Assembly: GCF_025446935.1 (NCBI RefSeq)
Contig: NZ_JAOEGN010000001.1
Location: 1 to 64,000 of the forward strand
Direction of reading: 5' to 3'
Source of the DNA: Paracholeplasma vituli
GTDB taxonomy: Bacteria; Bacillota_I; Bacilli_A; Acholeplasmatales; UBA5453
Length of the DNA: 64,000 nt
Under the pieces are notes generated by a model. The model saw nothing but the letters and a program-made list of their open reading frames with translations, had not been told where the DNA came from and ran no database searches. Below are positions 4,903 to 54,590 of this stretch, piece after piece. The translations under genes and the position numbers were made by a program. The number at the start of each line of letters is the position of its first letter. Position 1 is the first letter of the stretch.

Positions 4903-6856
4903 AGATGTTTTGATAAGCTTGTACGACTTTCTCTTTGGTAAATCCAAACGCTTTGATGACCACTTCAAGTGGGGCGGATAACCCATAACGGTCAATACCA
5001 TAAACGTGTGGGGTATATTTATACCAAGATTGTGAGGAACCCATTTCGATGGCTAAAGTCTTAACACCTTTAGGTAAGACTTCTAACTTGTAGGCTACAG
5101 ATTGTCTTTCAAATAAGTAATGTGAAGGCATCGATACGACGCGAACAAATGTATTATGACTTTCTAGAAGTTGTTGCGCTTCGATGGCTAATCCAACTTC
5201 AGAACCTGCAGCTAATAATACACCATCAAGAGGACCTTTTTCAGGAGATACCACATAAGCACCCTTTTCAAAGACATCCATAGAAACTGCTGGTAAAGTC
5301 TTCACGTTTTGTCTCGTTAAGATGATTGCGGATGGGGTCTTGTGTTGCTTAACTGCCCAATACCAAGCCGCTTTGGTTTCATTCGCATCTGCTGGTCTCA
5401 TCACGTTTAATCCCGGAATAACACGTAAACCGGCTAATTGCTCGATCGGTTCATGGGTCGGACCATCTTCACCGACTGCAATTGAGTCGTGAGAGAAAAC
5501 GAAAATCGATGGGATTTGCATAAGTGCAGCCAAACGAATGGATGGTTTCATGTAATCTGAGAAGACGAAGAAAGCACCTGAAAAAGCCTTTAATCCGCCA
5601 TGTAACTGCATACCGTTCGTAATCGCACCCATGGCGTGTTCACGAACACCAAAGTTGATGTTACGTCCTAGACGGTTTTCTTTTGAGAAGTGTCCATCGG
5701 CGCCTTTCGCTTTAGTTGAAGCGGTAAGGTCAGCGGATCCACCGATGATATTAGGCATGAGTTTAGATAATTCATCTAAGACTTTACCGGAAGCAGCGCG
5801 CGTCGCGATTTGTGATCCTACTTCAAACTTCGGTAGGTCTTTAAAATCAACTTCACGGCTTTCGACGATAAAGGATTTGAGTAATGCAGCTTCAACAGGG
5901 TACTTTTCTTGATACTCCGTAATCATTTGAATCCATTTACGGTAATAACGAGATCCTCTATTGTAAACTTTGGTCTTGTAGTATTTATAGACATCTTGTG
6001 GGACTTCAAATGGTTTGTAATCCCAACCTAAATTTTTTCTGAGCTCTTCTGCTTTTTCTAATCCGATTGGTGAACCATGGACGTTTGAAGTACCCGCTAA
6101 GGAAGTACCATAACCGATGATGGTCTTAACTTCAATGACACTTGGTTTATCGGATTCTTTTTGTGCTTTTTTAATCGCTTTGGTGATTGCATTTAAGTCA
6201 TTACCATCCGAAACCTTTTGATAATGCCAGTTCATGGATTCGAACTTTTTCTTGTGGTCATCGGAGAAAGCCAATGACGTTTTACCATCTAATTGGATAT
6301 CGTTAGAGTCGAAAAGAACAATGAGTTTACCTAATCCAAGGTGTCCTGCTAAGGACAACGCTTCTAAAGCAACGCCTTCTTGAAGGTCACCATCACCACA
6401 AAGTACATAGGTATAGTGGTCAATGATAGGATAATTTTCTTTATTGAATTTCGCAGCAAGATGAGATTCCGCTAACGCCATCCCCACCCCATTAGAAATC
6501 CCTTGGCCAAGTGGACCGGAAGTCGTTTCAACGCCATCTGTATGACCATATTCAGGGTGACCTGGGGTCTTGCCAATTTGTCTAAAGTTTTTTAGATCAT
6601 CCATGGTTAGTTGATAACCAGATAGGTGGTTTAGTCCATATAACAACATGGACCCATGACCTGCGGATAAAATGAATCGGTCACGGTTAAACCAGTTTGA
6701 TTTTTTAGGGAATGCTTTTAAAAAACGAGTATAAAGCACGTGTGCCATAGGAGCAGCACCCAATACAATACCTGGGTGTCCTGAGTTCGCTTGATTAATC
6801 GCGTCAACACCAAGGAAACGTAATGTTTGAATACTTAAATGATCCATCTTTTCCAT
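4901..6856 (-). CDS. tkt: Transketolase
   Basis: Thiamine-diphosphate enzyme that moves two-carbon units between sugar phosphates in the non-oxidative pentose phosphate pathway. At 651 residues it has normal length and domain order: the TPP-binding domain (GHGSMLLYGLNHL near 68-80 and GDGDLQEGVALEA near 151-163), the pyrimidine domain with SADLTAS and HDSIAVGEDGPTHEP, and the C-terminal domain. In an organism without a full TCA cycle it would supply ribose phosphate and erythrose phosphate from glycolysis. The ATG follows GAGAGGT at a normal distance. The gene sits 11 bases behind the small membrane-protein gene and is probably cotranscribed with it. Confidence 0.97.
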   Translation of the reverse strand: MEKMDHLSIQTLRFLGVDAINQANSGHPGIVLGAAPMAHVLYTRFLKAFPKKSNWFNRDRFILSAGHGSMLLYGLNHLSGYQLTMDDLKNFRQIGKTPGHPEYGHTDGVETTSGPLGQGISNGVGMALAESHLAAKFNKENYPIIDHYTYVLCGDGDLQEGVALEALSLAGHLGLGKLIVLFDSNDIQLDGKTSLAFSDDHKKKFESMNWHYQKVSDGNDLNAITKAIKKAQKESDKPSVIEVKTIIGYGTSLAGTSNVHGSPIGLEKAEELRKNLGWDYKPFEVPQDVYKYYKTKVYNRGSRYYRKWIQMITEYQEKYPVEAALLKSFIVESREVDFKDLPKFEVGSQIATRAASGKVLDELSKLMPNIIGGSADLTASTKAKGADGHFSKENRLGRNINFGVREHAMGAITNGMQLHGGLKAFSGAFFVFSDYMKPSIRLAALMQIPSIFVFSHDSIAVGEDGPTHEPIEQLAGLRVIPGLNVMRPADANETKAAWYWAVKQHKTPSAIILTRQNVKTLPAVSMDVFEKGAYVVSPEKGPLDGVLLAAGSEVGLAIEAQQLLESHNTFVRVVSMPSHYLFERQSVAYKLEVLPKGVKTLAIEMGSSQSWYKYTPHVYGIDRYGLSAPLEVVIKAFGFTKEKVVQAYQNI

Positions 6857-6867
6857 AATTTACCTCT

Positions 6868-7497
6868 CTATTTTGATTTTGGATTTTCTTCTTCAGCTTT
6901 TGGTTCTTCGCTAACTTCGACTGCAGGTTCTACTTTTTCTTCAAACTTGAAATAGTCTTCGTAGTATTTACCTTGTTTTTCGAGTAAATCATTGAATTTA
7001 TTTTCACCAATAATCATTTGAATATCTTTAACTGCGGTTGTTCTCGCTTCTTCAACCTTCTTACGCATAATGGTGGTTTGTAACATATTAGTTACCAAAA
7101 CAACACCTAAGATACCGATTAACGCGAAGTTTTGATAATCTCTCAACGCTTCAAGGGTTGAGAATAAAATCGCTAATACCATAGATACCGCAATCATTGG
7201 GAATACCATTTTATACATTAATCCAAAACGAACTTTATCCGCTTTTTCATAGAATGTAATCCAAACTTGATTCACGCGTTTGGAATACAGGTCTTTCATG
7301 ACTTGATAGTAACCGTCTTCGATTAATAATTTATAGCTCTTAGAGTCGCTTGTCCAAACGGCGAATTGGCCTTTACCAGCGAATCGAGATAAGAATTTGG
7401 TATCATTCATAGAGTGAATCTCGACGGTTTTACCTTCGAGTTGGTAAGTTTCTTTAGGATTATTGAGTTGTTTAAAAATGCCGTATTGTAGTTTCAT
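6868..7497 (-). CDS. Unknown membrane protein with two transmembrane segments
   Basis: I do not recognise the family. The start is taken as the ATG at 7497, which follows GGAGGAATTATTCT; a longer frame runs further upstream but has no ribosome site and would cross the -10 TATAAT at 7519-7524. The 209-residue product has a soluble N-terminal part (1-100), two hydrophobic segments at about 105-125 and 133-152, a lysine- and glutamate-rich helical stretch and a very acidic tail (EEPKAEEENPKSK). It probably forms an operon with tkt. It occupies the place downstream of tadA-SRP RNA where many Firmicutes have dnaX, but it is not DnaX. Confidence 0.7.
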   Translation of the reverse strand: MKLQYGIFKQLNNPKETYQLEGKTVEIHSMNDTKFLSRFAGKGQFAVWTSDSKSYKLLIEDGYYQVMKDLYSKRVNQVWITFYEKADKVRFGLMYKMVFPMIAVSMVLAILFSTLEALRDYQNFALIGILGVVLVTNMLQTTIMRKKVEEARTTAVKDIQMIIGENKFNDLLEKQGKYYEDYFKFEEKVEPAVEVSEEPKAEEENPKSK

Positions 7498-50541: not shown

Positions 50542-51657
50542 TTATATCGAACGGTTTTCAAATGAGAATACAAAATCGAGTTTTAATTGATCTCTGACTT
50601 GTTTAAACTCTTTTTGAAGGTCATCACCAATGGGGACACCCTTATCTTTACGCTCTAGCCAAGTAAGGTATTCTTTTTCACCTGCGGTATAAATTTTATC
50701 ATGGTTCGGAGCCTTTTTTGAAGCCCTCAGTTGTCTTAGTATTTCACCCGTGGTGTGTTTTAAGTTTTCTAAACCCATGAAGAAATCTGGGTTGATGGCG
50801 AGAAAGAAATGACCTACTGGAATTGGCTTATTTGAGCCATCTTCAGCAACACCACTGAGCTGATGAAGAAATGACCCTGCCTGTAATGCACTCGATAATA
50901 TTTCAACCACGGTTGCGTAACCATAGCCTTTATAACCAGCGAGTTCCTCACCTATACCACCAAGGGGCGTAAGAGCAGCTTTCCCACTAACTAAGTCAGT
51001 TAGAATCTGCTTACTATGCGTTTGAGGGGTACCATCACGGCCAATGACTAAACCTGCTGGGGTTTCTTGGTTATTTCGTGCATAATATTCAATTCGACCG
51101 CGTTGTGTGATGGAGGTTGCGGCATCCAAAACAAAAGGAAAGTCTTCATCTGTTGGAATAGCGAAAGTCAGTGGGTTTGTCCCTAGCATGTTTTCTACAC
51201 CAAAGGTTGGTGCGATGGATGGTCTCGCGTTGGTTCCTGTCATCCCAATCAAACCGTGCTCTGTTGCCATAGTTGCGTAGTAACCTGCTATCCCAAAATG
51301 GGTACTGTTTCTGACAACGACCATGCCTAAACCCAATTGTTTCGCTTTGGTGATCGCCATTTTCATTGCGGTATGCGCGATGACCATCCCCATACCATTA
51401 TGGCCATCAATGACGGCTGTGGTTGGGGTATCTTTGAGTATTTCAATCTGAGTGATGGGTTCTTGAATGTGTTTTATTATACGGTCAATATAAAAAGGTT
51501 TAAACCGATTGATACCGTGCGATTCTATCCCGCGACGATCACTTTCAAGTAGGACATCTACACAAATCGCTGCGTCTTTTTCAGGTACACCGACTTTCAT
51601 AAAGGCGGCCATCATGAATGCTTTCGCTTCGTTCCAAGACATATAAGGTCGTTCCAT
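50542..51657 (-). CDS. Malate/L-lactate dehydrogenase family oxidoreductase (Ldh2 type)
   Basis: A 371-residue NAD(P)-dependent 2-hydroxyacid dehydrogenase of the Ldh_2 family (malate, L-lactate, ureidoglycolate and sulfolactate dehydrogenases). Seen: SDRRGIESHGINRF (about 45-58, with the conserved histidine), VVRNSTHFGIAGYYA (about 114-128), GTNPLTFAIPT and GYKGYGYATVVEILSSAL. Start at 51657 follows GGAGGT; the ATG four codons earlier overlaps that site. The true substrate cannot be read from the sequence. Confidence 0.9.
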   Translation of the reverse strand: MERPYMSWNEAKAFMMAAFMKVGVPEKDAAICVDVLLESDRRGIESHGINRFKPFYIDRIIKHIQEPITQIEILKDTPTTAVIDGHNGMGMVIAHTAMKMAITKAKQLGLGMVVVRNSTHFGIAGYYATMATEHGLIGMTGTNARPSIAPTFGVENMLGTNPLTFAIPTDEDFPFVLDAATSITQRGRIEYYARNNQETPAGLVIGRDGTPQTHSKQILTDLVSGKAALTPLGGIGEELAGYKGYGYATVVEILSSALQAGSFLHQLSGVAEDGSNKPIPVGHFFLAINPDFFMGLENLKHTTGEILRQLRASKKAPNHDKIYTAGEKEYLTWLERKDKGVPIGDDLQKEFKQVRDQLKLDFVFSFENRSI

Positions 51658-51765
51658 ACTTACCTCCATTAGAATTGCTTATCTACTCTTATTGTAAACG
51701 ATTTAGGACACTTAGGATGTCAGAAAATGATGAAAATAAGGAATTATGAAGTTTCTAGACTACAG

Positions 51766-53051: not shown

Positions 53052-53092
53052 TAAGATAATAAAATCCCCACATTTGGGGGAATGTGGGGATA
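53052..53092 (-). terminator. Terminator of the peptide-98 aa operon
   Basis: Minus strand ATCCCCACATT / AATGTGGGGAT, a perfect 11-bp stem with CCCCCA loop, followed by TTTATTATCTT. A second small hairpin (AAGAC / GTCTT) lies at 53101-53119. Confidence 0.8.
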
Positions 53093-53121: not shown

Positions 53122-53418
53122 TTACGATAGTGCGTTCGCGATTAACTTTGAAGATTCATTCTTGAGTTCTACCAATAACGCGAAAGTTTTCTTGTGATTC
53201 TCCTTGTCATAAACAAATTGATCACACAATATGTCATTTAGGTGACTTTGGTACCAATCTACCATCTTATTTGAGGTTAGATTGACAAGCTTTATCTCTT
53301 GATCGTAGATTGAATTTTTAAGGATTTCCATGTATCCTATAATATAGGGATCCTTAGTGATGTTTTCCACTGTTTTGGTCATGCCTGTTAATTCAATTTG
53401 GTATTTTGTCCAATCCAT
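53122..53418 (-). CDS. Small protein of unknown function downstream of the signal-peptide-like gene
   Basis: A 98-residue, mostly helical, soluble protein without a signal or membrane helix. It has one cysteine (near residue 65) and a tryptophan-tyrosine pair near 55. Family not recognised. It begins 28 bases after the stop of the 48-codon peptide gene, with no terminator between, so both probably form one operon that ends at 53052-53092. The ribosome site (AAGGAAGG) is 12 bases from the ATG, rather far. It could be the output of the regulator encoded divergently; this is an inference from position. Confidence 0.6.
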   Translation of the reverse strand: MDWTKYQIELTGMTKTVENITKDPYIIGYMEILKNSIYDQEIKLVNLTSNKMVDWYQSHLNDILCDQFVYDKENHKKTFALLVELKNESSKLIANALS

Positions 53419-53445: not shown

Positions 53446-53592
53446 CTAGCCACCGACTTTAAATATTGGATCGCCTTCATCAAACTCTAAGACGATCTCA
53501 GGGGTATTTTTTACAGGTTTTGATACAAGGTGTATTAAATAACCTGTCATCAATACGCCCATTAAAACGACGCTGATGATTTTCTTTTTCAT
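53446..53592 (-). CDS. Exported peptide, candidate pheromone precursor (SHP/Phr-like)
   Basis: A 48-codon gene, ATG at 53592 and TAG at 53446-53448, with GGGAGAAG before the start. The product begins MKKK, has a hydrophobic export-type stretch at 5-23 (IISVVLMGVLMTGYLIHLV), then a polar part rich in E and D, and ends DPIFKVGG. That C-terminus resembles the active octapeptides of streptococcal SHP pheromones (such as DIIIIVGG and DILIIVGG). The gene is divergent from an HTH+TPR regulator of Rgg/PlcR type 83 bases away, the usual layout of such pairs. It is longer than typical SHP genes (about 22-35 codons), closer to Phr precursors. No consensus -35 is found. Confidence 0.72.
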   Translation of the reverse strand: MKKKIISVVLMGVLMTGYLIHLVSKPVKNTPEIVLEFDEGDPIFKVGG

Positions 53593-53646
53593 GTCTTCTC
53601 CCTCGACATGCAAAGTTTACAAGGATTATTAAGGGGTACGTGAGTG

Positions 53647-53654
53647 CACATGTG
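53647..53654. promoter_or_regulatory. Possible operator in the peptide/regulator divergent region
   Basis: CACATGTG palindrome, 29 bases before the regulator ATG. On the minus strand it overlaps the place where a -35 would be for the best -10 candidate of the peptide gene (TTAATA at 53627-53632). An activator bound here could stand in for the missing -35. Weak evidence: only 8 bases long. Confidence 0.35.
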
Positions 53655-53675
53655 ACACTTTCGGAGGTGAACTCA

Positions 53676-54590
53676 ATGATTTCTCGGGAAATGTGTGTTT
53701 TATTAGATGATTTTAGACAAAAGAAAAAACTCTCGATGATTAAATTCACCGATGAGATTGTTTCGTTAAGACAATATAAACGCTACTTATATGGTACCTC
53801 TGAGATGCCTTTTAAAATGTTTGTTGAGCTATGTGCGAGAATTCATATCGACCCGCAGTACTTAATCTTCGAACTAGAACGCAAGCGCATCGAACAGCTT
53901 ACCACTTTAGATGATCTAAATCGAGCAGTAATTACCAATGATTACACTCAAGCTAACCTTTTAATCAAGCAGTTAAGAGAAGAAACACTACTCGATAAAG
54001 CAAATGAAACTTATTTCGAGCTTTTGATCCTATTGATGAGTTTTTATAAGAAAGAATTCCCTGATCACCACTATGCCAATGCTTGTGCAAAGTTAATTGG
54101 ATACCCAGAAATCTTAAACCACGACATGCTCAGTGCGGTGGAAATTGGTGGTTTATCGATGATGTTAAACTTTCTTCCTCAATCAGACCGTCGTCCTGTG
54201 ATGGATAAACTCGATGAAATCGTTACGAAAAAAGCATTTGAATTCATCAATAAAGATTTTTATACTTTAAATTTCGTAAGACTTAAACTCGCTAGAGAAT
54301 ACGGTATGTTAAGAGATTTTGATAAAGTGATTCCGATGTGCGAACAAGTTGTTCGCTCTTGTGAGAACTATAACTCTTATTACAACTTAGATTTAGCCTA
54401 CTATTACTTATCCTTAAGTTATAAACACTTAAAAGATATGGAAAAAGCCCATCACTACTTAGAAAAAATGTATTACGCGTTAAAGGTTAAACCTAATATG
54501 AGTGCCTTTGAGAAATACAATAAAATCATCGTCGGTGATTTTGGTTTCGATTTTGAAACCTTAATGACGAGTCGTAAAAAGAATTACTGA
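53676..54590 (+). CDS. HTH + TPR regulator, RRNPP (Rgg/PlcR-like) type
   Basis: A 304-residue protein. Residues 1-65 form an XRE-like helix-turn-helix (LSMIKFTDEIVSLRQYKRYLYG and the SEMPFKMFVELCARIHI helix), and residues about 70-300 are a chain of TPR-like helix pairs (LNFVRLKLAREYGMLRDFDKVIPM and DLAYYYLSLSYKHLKDMEKAHHYLEKMY are the clearest, named here by position about 200-225 and 240-267). This is the layout of Rgg, PlcR, PrgX and related receptors that bind imported peptides. Start at 53676 has GGAGGTG eight bases upstream; a GTG at 53640 is in frame but has no ribosome site. The divergent partner encodes an exported peptide. Confidence 0.82.
   Translation: MISREMCVLLDDFRQKKKLSMIKFTDEIVSLRQYKRYLYGTSEMPFKMFVELCARIHIDPQYLIFELERKRIEQLTTLDDLNRAVITNDYTQANLLIKQLREETLLDKANETYFELLILLMSFYKKEFPDHHYANACAKLIGYPEILNHDMLSAVEIGGLSMMLNFLPQSDRRPVMDKLDEIVTKKAFEFINKDFYTLNFVRLKLAREYGMLRDFDKVIPMCEQVVRSCENYNSYYNLDLAYYYLSLSYKHLKDMEKAHHYLEKMYYALKVKPNMSAFEKYNKIIVGDFGFDFETLMTSRKKNY

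Follow-up and report, generated by a model that had tools for sequence, protein, structure and literature searches.

Does a 48-codon open reading frame (ORF) of Paracholeplasma vituli, lying divergent from a gene for an HTH+TPR protein, encode the pheromone of a peptide-signalling system in a wall-less bacterium, and, if so, to which kind does the system belong? The sequence-only reading of this locus had proposed an SHP/Rgg-like pair, with the C-terminal octapeptide DPIFKVGG resembling streptococcal signals. Our analysis of the window, that is, the whole stretch of 64,000 nucleotides, supports the pair but not the label. The locus is very probably a self-contained peptide-signalling cassette of the RRNPP type, with a propeptide, a receptor, an operator and an SpbK-like output. 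Its features, with one flanking neighbour, are the following.

50542-51669: dehydrogenase (LDH), 375 aa, flanking neighbour
53064..53091, minus strand: intrinsic-terminator-like hairpin, 11-bp stem followed by TTTTATTAT
53122..53418, minus strand: third cassette gene, 98 aa; homolog of the SpbK N-terminal domain, no TIR domain
53446..53592, minus strand: propeptide gene, ATG start, 48 codons, MKKKIISVVLMGVLMTGYLIHLVSKPVKNTPEIVLEFDEGDPIFKVGG; ORF with ribosome site
53449..53490, minus strand: likely pheromone region, propeptide residues 35-48, LEFDEGDPIFKVGG; aligns to the repeat unit of the family
53643..53661, no strand assigned: operator-like imperfect dyad AGTGCACATGTGACACTTT between the propeptide and receptor genes
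53676..54590, plus strand: receptor gene, 304 aa; GGAGGTG 5' of the ATG

The start codons of the divergent propeptide and receptor genes are separated by 83 nt, and the ribosome-site sequence GGGAGAAGAC is found upstream of the propeptide ATG. The propeptide begins with an n-region (MKKK), followed by a hydrophobic core and an exported-looking tail of about 24 residues. The 98-aa gene, which had escaped the sequence-only reading, follows on the same strand. Behind it, the hairpin at 53064-53091 folds better than shuffled sequences (z -2.5) and, being terminator-like, appears to close the propeptide/98-aa transcript. The receptor is present as a single copy in the genome (1.86 Mb, 99.99% complete). 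No penicillin-binding transpeptidase domain was found in this genome, which fits a wall-less organism.

The locus has a syntenic counterpart in another species of the genus (G003; L002/L079). There, a 48-codon ORF with a GTG start occupies the same position and is 46% identical to the window propeptide over its full length (tblastn E 3e-10), the nucleotide changes being concentrated at third codon positions (20/15/31). A 31-nt block containing the dyad (53639-53669, CGTGAGTGCACATGTGACACTTTCGGAGGTG) is identical in L002. The syntenic ORF, the third-position bias, the unchanged block and the family-wide pairing described below together argue that the small ORF is not a chance occurrence, and the exported-looking gene first noticed from the sequence is real. 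The receptor is 53% identical in L002, the DUF2975 neighbour 54% and the 98-aa protein 82%, whereas the farther neighbours, namely DUF2130, inositol monophosphatase (IMPase), LDH and GalE, are 79-90% identical to those of G003. Receptor and peptide have therefore both changed much more rapidly than most of their neighbours. The 98-aa gene is, by its substitution pattern, under purifying selection (dN 0.07, dS 1.04; dN/dS ~0.07). The expectation that relatives keeping the receptor would keep the small gene with its C-terminus was borne out in part: the gene is kept in L002, but the octapeptide is not conserved, DPIFKVGG in the window corresponding to DPGKKIGG.

The receptor comprises a degenerate XRE HTH (approximately residues 4-55), a linker helix (60-86) and TPR-like helices (90-303). 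The AlphaFold2 model (pLDDT 90.3, pTM 0.78) shows the HTH and the linker helix, together with about five pairs of helices. Foldseek ranked PlcR-PapR-DNA, ComR, a Listeria regulator and Rgg2 highest among PDB matches to this model; Rgg3 was also matched, PrgX and Rap ranked lower, and all 23 matches at E<=0.001 were regulators of the RRNPP kind or uncharacterised look-alikes. A family profile built from 61 homologs matched PlcR best (2qfc, E 2.9e-6, positions 9-257), with Rgg2 at 2.3e-5. Across these 61 members, Pfam HTH_3 was found in 34 and PF18768 RNPP_C in two (best 7.4e-5), and no Rgg family model of NCBIfam or Pfam matched any of them. With the window receptor alone, the Pfam scan gave a weak TPR_2 match (0.005) and no match to PF18768 RNPP_C, and the search of PDB sequences gave no significant match. 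As these single-sequence searches are nearly empty, we assign the receptor from its family profile together with its fold, by which it is predicted to be an RRNPP-type HTH+TPR protein. The Rgg/PlcR-type layout that had been proposed is thus upheld by the matches to PlcR, ComR, Rgg2 and PrgX. An origin from AimR or a prophage was considered and dropped, since no receptor was found in viral contigs (scanned with a single short pattern), phage records or plasmids, and viral structures gave no match to the receptor at E<=0.001.

The receptor belongs to a sizeable family. Profile searches recovered about 100 receptors from 52 of 160 genomes of the order; homologs were present in 70 of the 395 genomes of a class-wide sample and in 28 of the 295 of a phylum-wide sample, all 28 lying inside the class. 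Among the small genomes (0.5-0.9 Mb) listed for genus g15, there was no receptor homolog. Most family receptors have a divergent ORF at a nearly constant distance of 80-115 nt; a ribosome site precedes it, and its product starts lysine-rich, continues with a hydrophobic segment and ends in a short polar tail. With a fixed criterion (divergent ORF, ribosome site, hydrophobic N-terminus, within 170 nt), such an ORF was found beside 93/136 receptors versus 24/224 other genes of the same loci. Together with the synteny in L002, this shows that small gene and regulator are kept together in relatives. Among the 43/136 receptors without a peptide by this criterion are some that stand as tandem pairs and belong to more distant subfamilies. 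At L004 (G001:C1:60694-64557), an intact receptor has no recognisable adjoining propeptide and is possibly an orphan. Six loci (L126/L172, L128/L176, L132/L164, L137/L163, L138/L165 and L140/L161) carry one propeptide and one SpbK-like gene between two receptors, the second of which lacks a separate peptide gene.

The propeptides themselves indicate which part is the signal. Many contain near-exact tandem copies, up to about 12, of a unit such as LDFDDSGFPEFVRI: there are six copies of DFDDSGFPEFVRI in L032, nine of DFDDRDEPEFINI in L110, ten of DFDDEDFPEFINL in L121 and about twelve of DFDDDDLPELINI in L124. Such repetition is difficult to account for if the unit is not itself the product. 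The conserved repeated element has 13-14 residues of the type LDFDDSGxPExVxL; it is hydrophilic and acidic, ends in hydrophobic residues and has no requirement for VGG. A matrix built from 57 repeat units (consensus LDFDDSGEPEWVRI) was fitted by the same-genus peptide MDYEDPDFPEFINSIGRG of L005 better than by any of 10000 shuffles (0/10000). The window tail LEFDEGDPIFKVGG fits loosely, with one residue missing, and 232/10000 shuffles (2.3%) are equally good. The L002 tail LEYEEPDPGKKIGG does not fit the repeat matrix by itself but is tied to the window peptide by propeptide homology; it also resembles L005 at YEEPD/YEDPD. From these alignments, the window pheromone most likely comprises all or part of the C-terminal ~14 residues, a single-copy relative of the repeat unit. 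If the family motif is the signal, forms longer than DPIFKVGG become candidates, i.e., LEFDEGDPIFKVGG and EFDEGDPIFKVGG. A VGG ending occurs only in the window peptide and in the same-genus paralog L007 (VVGG); L002 ends in IGG, and the other family ends differ. Given that a 13-14-residue unit is conserved across the family, the SHP-likeness of the last eight residues is a coincidence of ending, and DPIFKVGG as such is not supported as the signal.

With regard to the operator, nearly all intergenic regions of the family have a dyad just 5' of the ribosome site of the receptor gene, e.g., ACGACATATATGTCGT, AGGGCGTATACGCCCT and AGGACAATTTTGTCCT. At up to three mismatches, the dyad of the window occurs a single time each in the window genome (G000) and in G003. 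Further sites resembling it, sought as a route to a regulon, were found in neither genome beyond the cassette. The receptor, having one operator site per genome, therefore probably controls its own cassette only. Across the family, loci with similar HTH domains have similar operators even after TPR similarity is accounted for (partial r 0.27, p 0.0005). Between peptide and TPR domain, no clear relation is left after correction for relatedness (partial Mantel r 0.09, p 0.06), and this weak covariation is not counted as support. Between operator and propeptide start, seven loci with tandem-repeat propeptide genes (L117, L119, L120, L121, L124, L125 and L127) have a long, near-perfect hairpin (CTAATATATAAATATA...), and other loci have CCTAATTG...CAATTAGG in the same position. 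These hairpins possibly serve translational control or mRNA stability.

The 98-aa protein is predicted by AlphaFold2 to form a confident four-helix bundle (pLDDT 96.9). Its family profile matched SpbK (9phb, construct residues 26-114) at E 4.7e-15, and the window protein alone did so at 7e-4. The PADLOC spbK model recognised the window protein (E 2e-12) and also 26/26 homologs. By these matches, the protein is homologous to the N-terminal domain of SpbK (residues 1-94). No TIR domain is present in the 98-aa protein, as the chain ends after the bundle, and no second copy of the SpbK N-terminal domain was found elsewhere in the genome. Foldseek gave no solved match for the model because the N-terminal domain is unresolved in the SpbK filament structure. 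SpbK is an antiphage TIR NADase of ICEBs1 in Bacillus subtilis; its N-terminal four-helix domain binds the phage portal YonE at the clip domain, which leads to clustering of the TIR domains and destruction of NAD (PMC12847820, PMC11984713). F69 and F71 of SpbK were mutated together to test portal binding (PMC12847820). In almost all homologs, F69 aligns to an aromatic residue (F in the window protein), and F71 aligns mostly to Y, F, I or V (Y in the window protein). This conservation in the alignment could reflect a portal contact or a structural role. Stand-alone homologs adjoin a receptor in 24/25 informative loci: the 30 loci examined divide into 24 with a receptor nearby, four at contig ends, L189 without a receptor, and L190, which encodes a full NTD-TIR protein. 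The latter (955-2082, 375 aa, SpbK-type N-terminal domain plus TIR) belongs to another genome and is unlinked to a receptor.

These elements suggest the following circuit. The 48-residue propeptide would be exported by Sec; signal peptidase, together with other proteases, would release a peptide drawn from the C-terminal 14 residues or so, which an oligopeptide permease would take back up. In the cytoplasm, the mature peptide would bind the TPR domain of the 304-residue receptor, which is expected to occupy the dyad operator beside the presumed propeptide promoter. Peptide binding would then switch this promoter, most likely in positive feedback, and the output would be the 98-residue SpbK-N-terminal-like protein, co-transcribed downstream of the propeptide. 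Candidate machinery for these steps is encoded in the genome: signal peptidase I, an M50 site-2 protease and an SBP_bac_5 oligopeptide-binding protein with adjacent permease genes, from which we infer export, processing and Opp re-import.

Since the known job of the SpbK N-terminal domain is portal recognition, we hypothesise by analogy an antiphage role for the output, and its tight link to the receptors suggests antiphage defence under density control. The TIR-less protein could block the portal, recruit a partner or act inside the circuit. It is conceivable, and we propose it only tentatively, that a secreted private peptide, which many relatives encode in a tandem, polyprotein-like precursor, switches on this TIR-less, SpbK-type portal binder at high density, so that sensing or blocking of the phage portal is quorum-controlled. 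Alternatively, signalling may be real with the 98-aa protein acting as a regulator inside the circuit, for instance as an anti-activator that binds the receptor, and with the targets elsewhere. The strict linkage to receptors (24/25 informative loci) would suit such a regulator, as would the different genes found in its place in other subfamilies (sigma-like factors, NUDIX, membrane proteins), and the phage protein paratox, a small inhibitor of ComR, provides a precedent (PMC8383118). We nevertheless regard it as rather unlikely: the operator occurs once per genome, no other promoter with a similar site was found, the terminator-like hairpin lies directly behind the 98-aa gene, and the closest relative whose function is known has phage portals rather than regulators as binding partners (PMC12847820, PMC11984713).

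The signalling reading as a whole has two competitors. A small hydrophobic ORF adjoining a repressor with one private operator could also be an autoregulated, toxin-like cassette, in which an ordinary XRE/TPR repressor is paired with a membrane peptide such as a small toxin or stress peptide. We consider this improbable, as a signal sequence followed by up to ~12 near-exact acidic 13-14-mers suits an excised peptide, unlike a membrane toxin, the cargo genes behind the peptides vary, and the receptor folds as pheromone receptors do. A genuine SHP/Rgg system of the streptococcal type, in which DPIFKVGG would leave through a PptAB-type transporter and an Rgg would sense it, is slightly more improbable still. 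The VGG ending shared with SHPs and with the paralog L007 (VVGG), as well as Rgg2 and Rgg3 among the fold matches, speak for it. Against it stand DPGKKIGG in syntenic L002, a family motif that lacks VGG and has a hydrophobic end, the failure of every Rgg model (NCBIfam, Pfam) to match any of 61 members, the better match of PlcR in both sequence and fold, and a precursor whose length (48) and signal type are PapR/Phr-like. The SHP/Rgg label is accordingly not supported; PlcR is the nearest solved receptor.

By fold and gene pairing, the cassette would be a member of the RRNPP group rather than an Rgg/SHP system, and we infer by analogy that it works like PlcR-PapR or ComRS. PlcR-PapR of the Bacillus cereus group shares the HTH+TPR receptor of about 300 aa, which is the best profile and fold match, and the Sec-type precursor of about 48 aa; a private operator and autoregulation are expected in both. 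The PapR precursor carries its signal at the C-terminus, as is predicted for the window propeptide. In contrast to PlcR-PapR, where the peptide gene lies downstream, the propeptide gene here is divergent, the unit is longer, acidic and often in tandem, the cargo differs, the hosts are wall-less, and RNPP_C matches only 2/61 members of the new family. The streptococcal systems Rgg2/3-SHP and ComR-ComS share the receptor fold and a small adjoining peptide gene with an operator between; the precursors here are longer (48 residues in the window, PapR/Phr-like, versus 20-30 in SHPs) and of Sec type, whereas SHPs are exported by PptAB (PMC9765709), no Rgg model matches and the motif is not SHP-like. 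Rap-Phr systems such as Phr105 and Phr3T also have more than one pheromone copy per secreted propeptide (PMC11343458), but these are two copies or pseudo-repeats with a Rap phosphatase, in contrast to up to ~12 copies with a DNA-binding receptor; precursors with as many copies as this were not found in the literature on duplicated Phr peptides (PMC11343458). In AloR-AloP of Paenibacillus polymyxa, the intracellular receptors likewise form an expanded family, are paired with short secreted peptides and directly control a neighbouring gene, but the peptide gene is downstream of the receptor and the cargo Spo0E-like (PMC7425212). With SpbK, the 98-aa protein shares the N-terminal four-helix domain together with its loop for contact with the phage portal YonE; it differs in lacking the TIR/NADase domain and in being a stand-alone gene of a pheromone cassette.

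Behind the propeptides of other subfamilies, we observed genes for sigma-70 region 4 proteins, NUDIX proteins, small membrane proteins and a C39 ABC transporter. The sigma-70 region 4 protein lies downstream of the propeptide in four loci, L007 (propeptide at 1230-1397; sigma-70 region 4 match at E 7e-10), L044, L045 and L065, a layout reminiscent of ComRS and recalling the link of ComR to its sigma factor.

Mollicutes are not mentioned in the published RRNPP surveys consulted (PMC9765709, PMC10075063, PMC12700828), and the literature on Acholeplasma with RRNPP or quorum sensing yielded no such system, in agreement with what the sequence-only reading had presumed for mollicutes. The family in acholeplasmas and their relatives is thus apparently undescribed. 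If our interpretation is right, acholeplasmas and allied wall-less or small-genome Bacilli join the bacteria with intracellular peptide quorum sensing. A single window has led to a family with considerably more than a hundred receptors, for most of which there is a candidate peptide. Candidate pheromones can be read directly off the sequence of the tandem-repeat precursors, ready for synthesis and testing in culturable acholeplasmas.

Several precursors depart from the simple pattern. In L055, L028 and L033, diverged extra units stand beside identical ones, and, judging from these repeats, each precursor may yield more than one signal. At L078 (G001:C1:179000-196000, positions 5800-7065), three identical exported propeptides of 52 aa ending in RGYIEDVGLPDGPGR alternate with four leaderless ORFs of 50-57 aa ending in the near-copy RGYLNDVGLPEGFSI; the leaderless ORFs could be cytosolic antagonists or self-activators.
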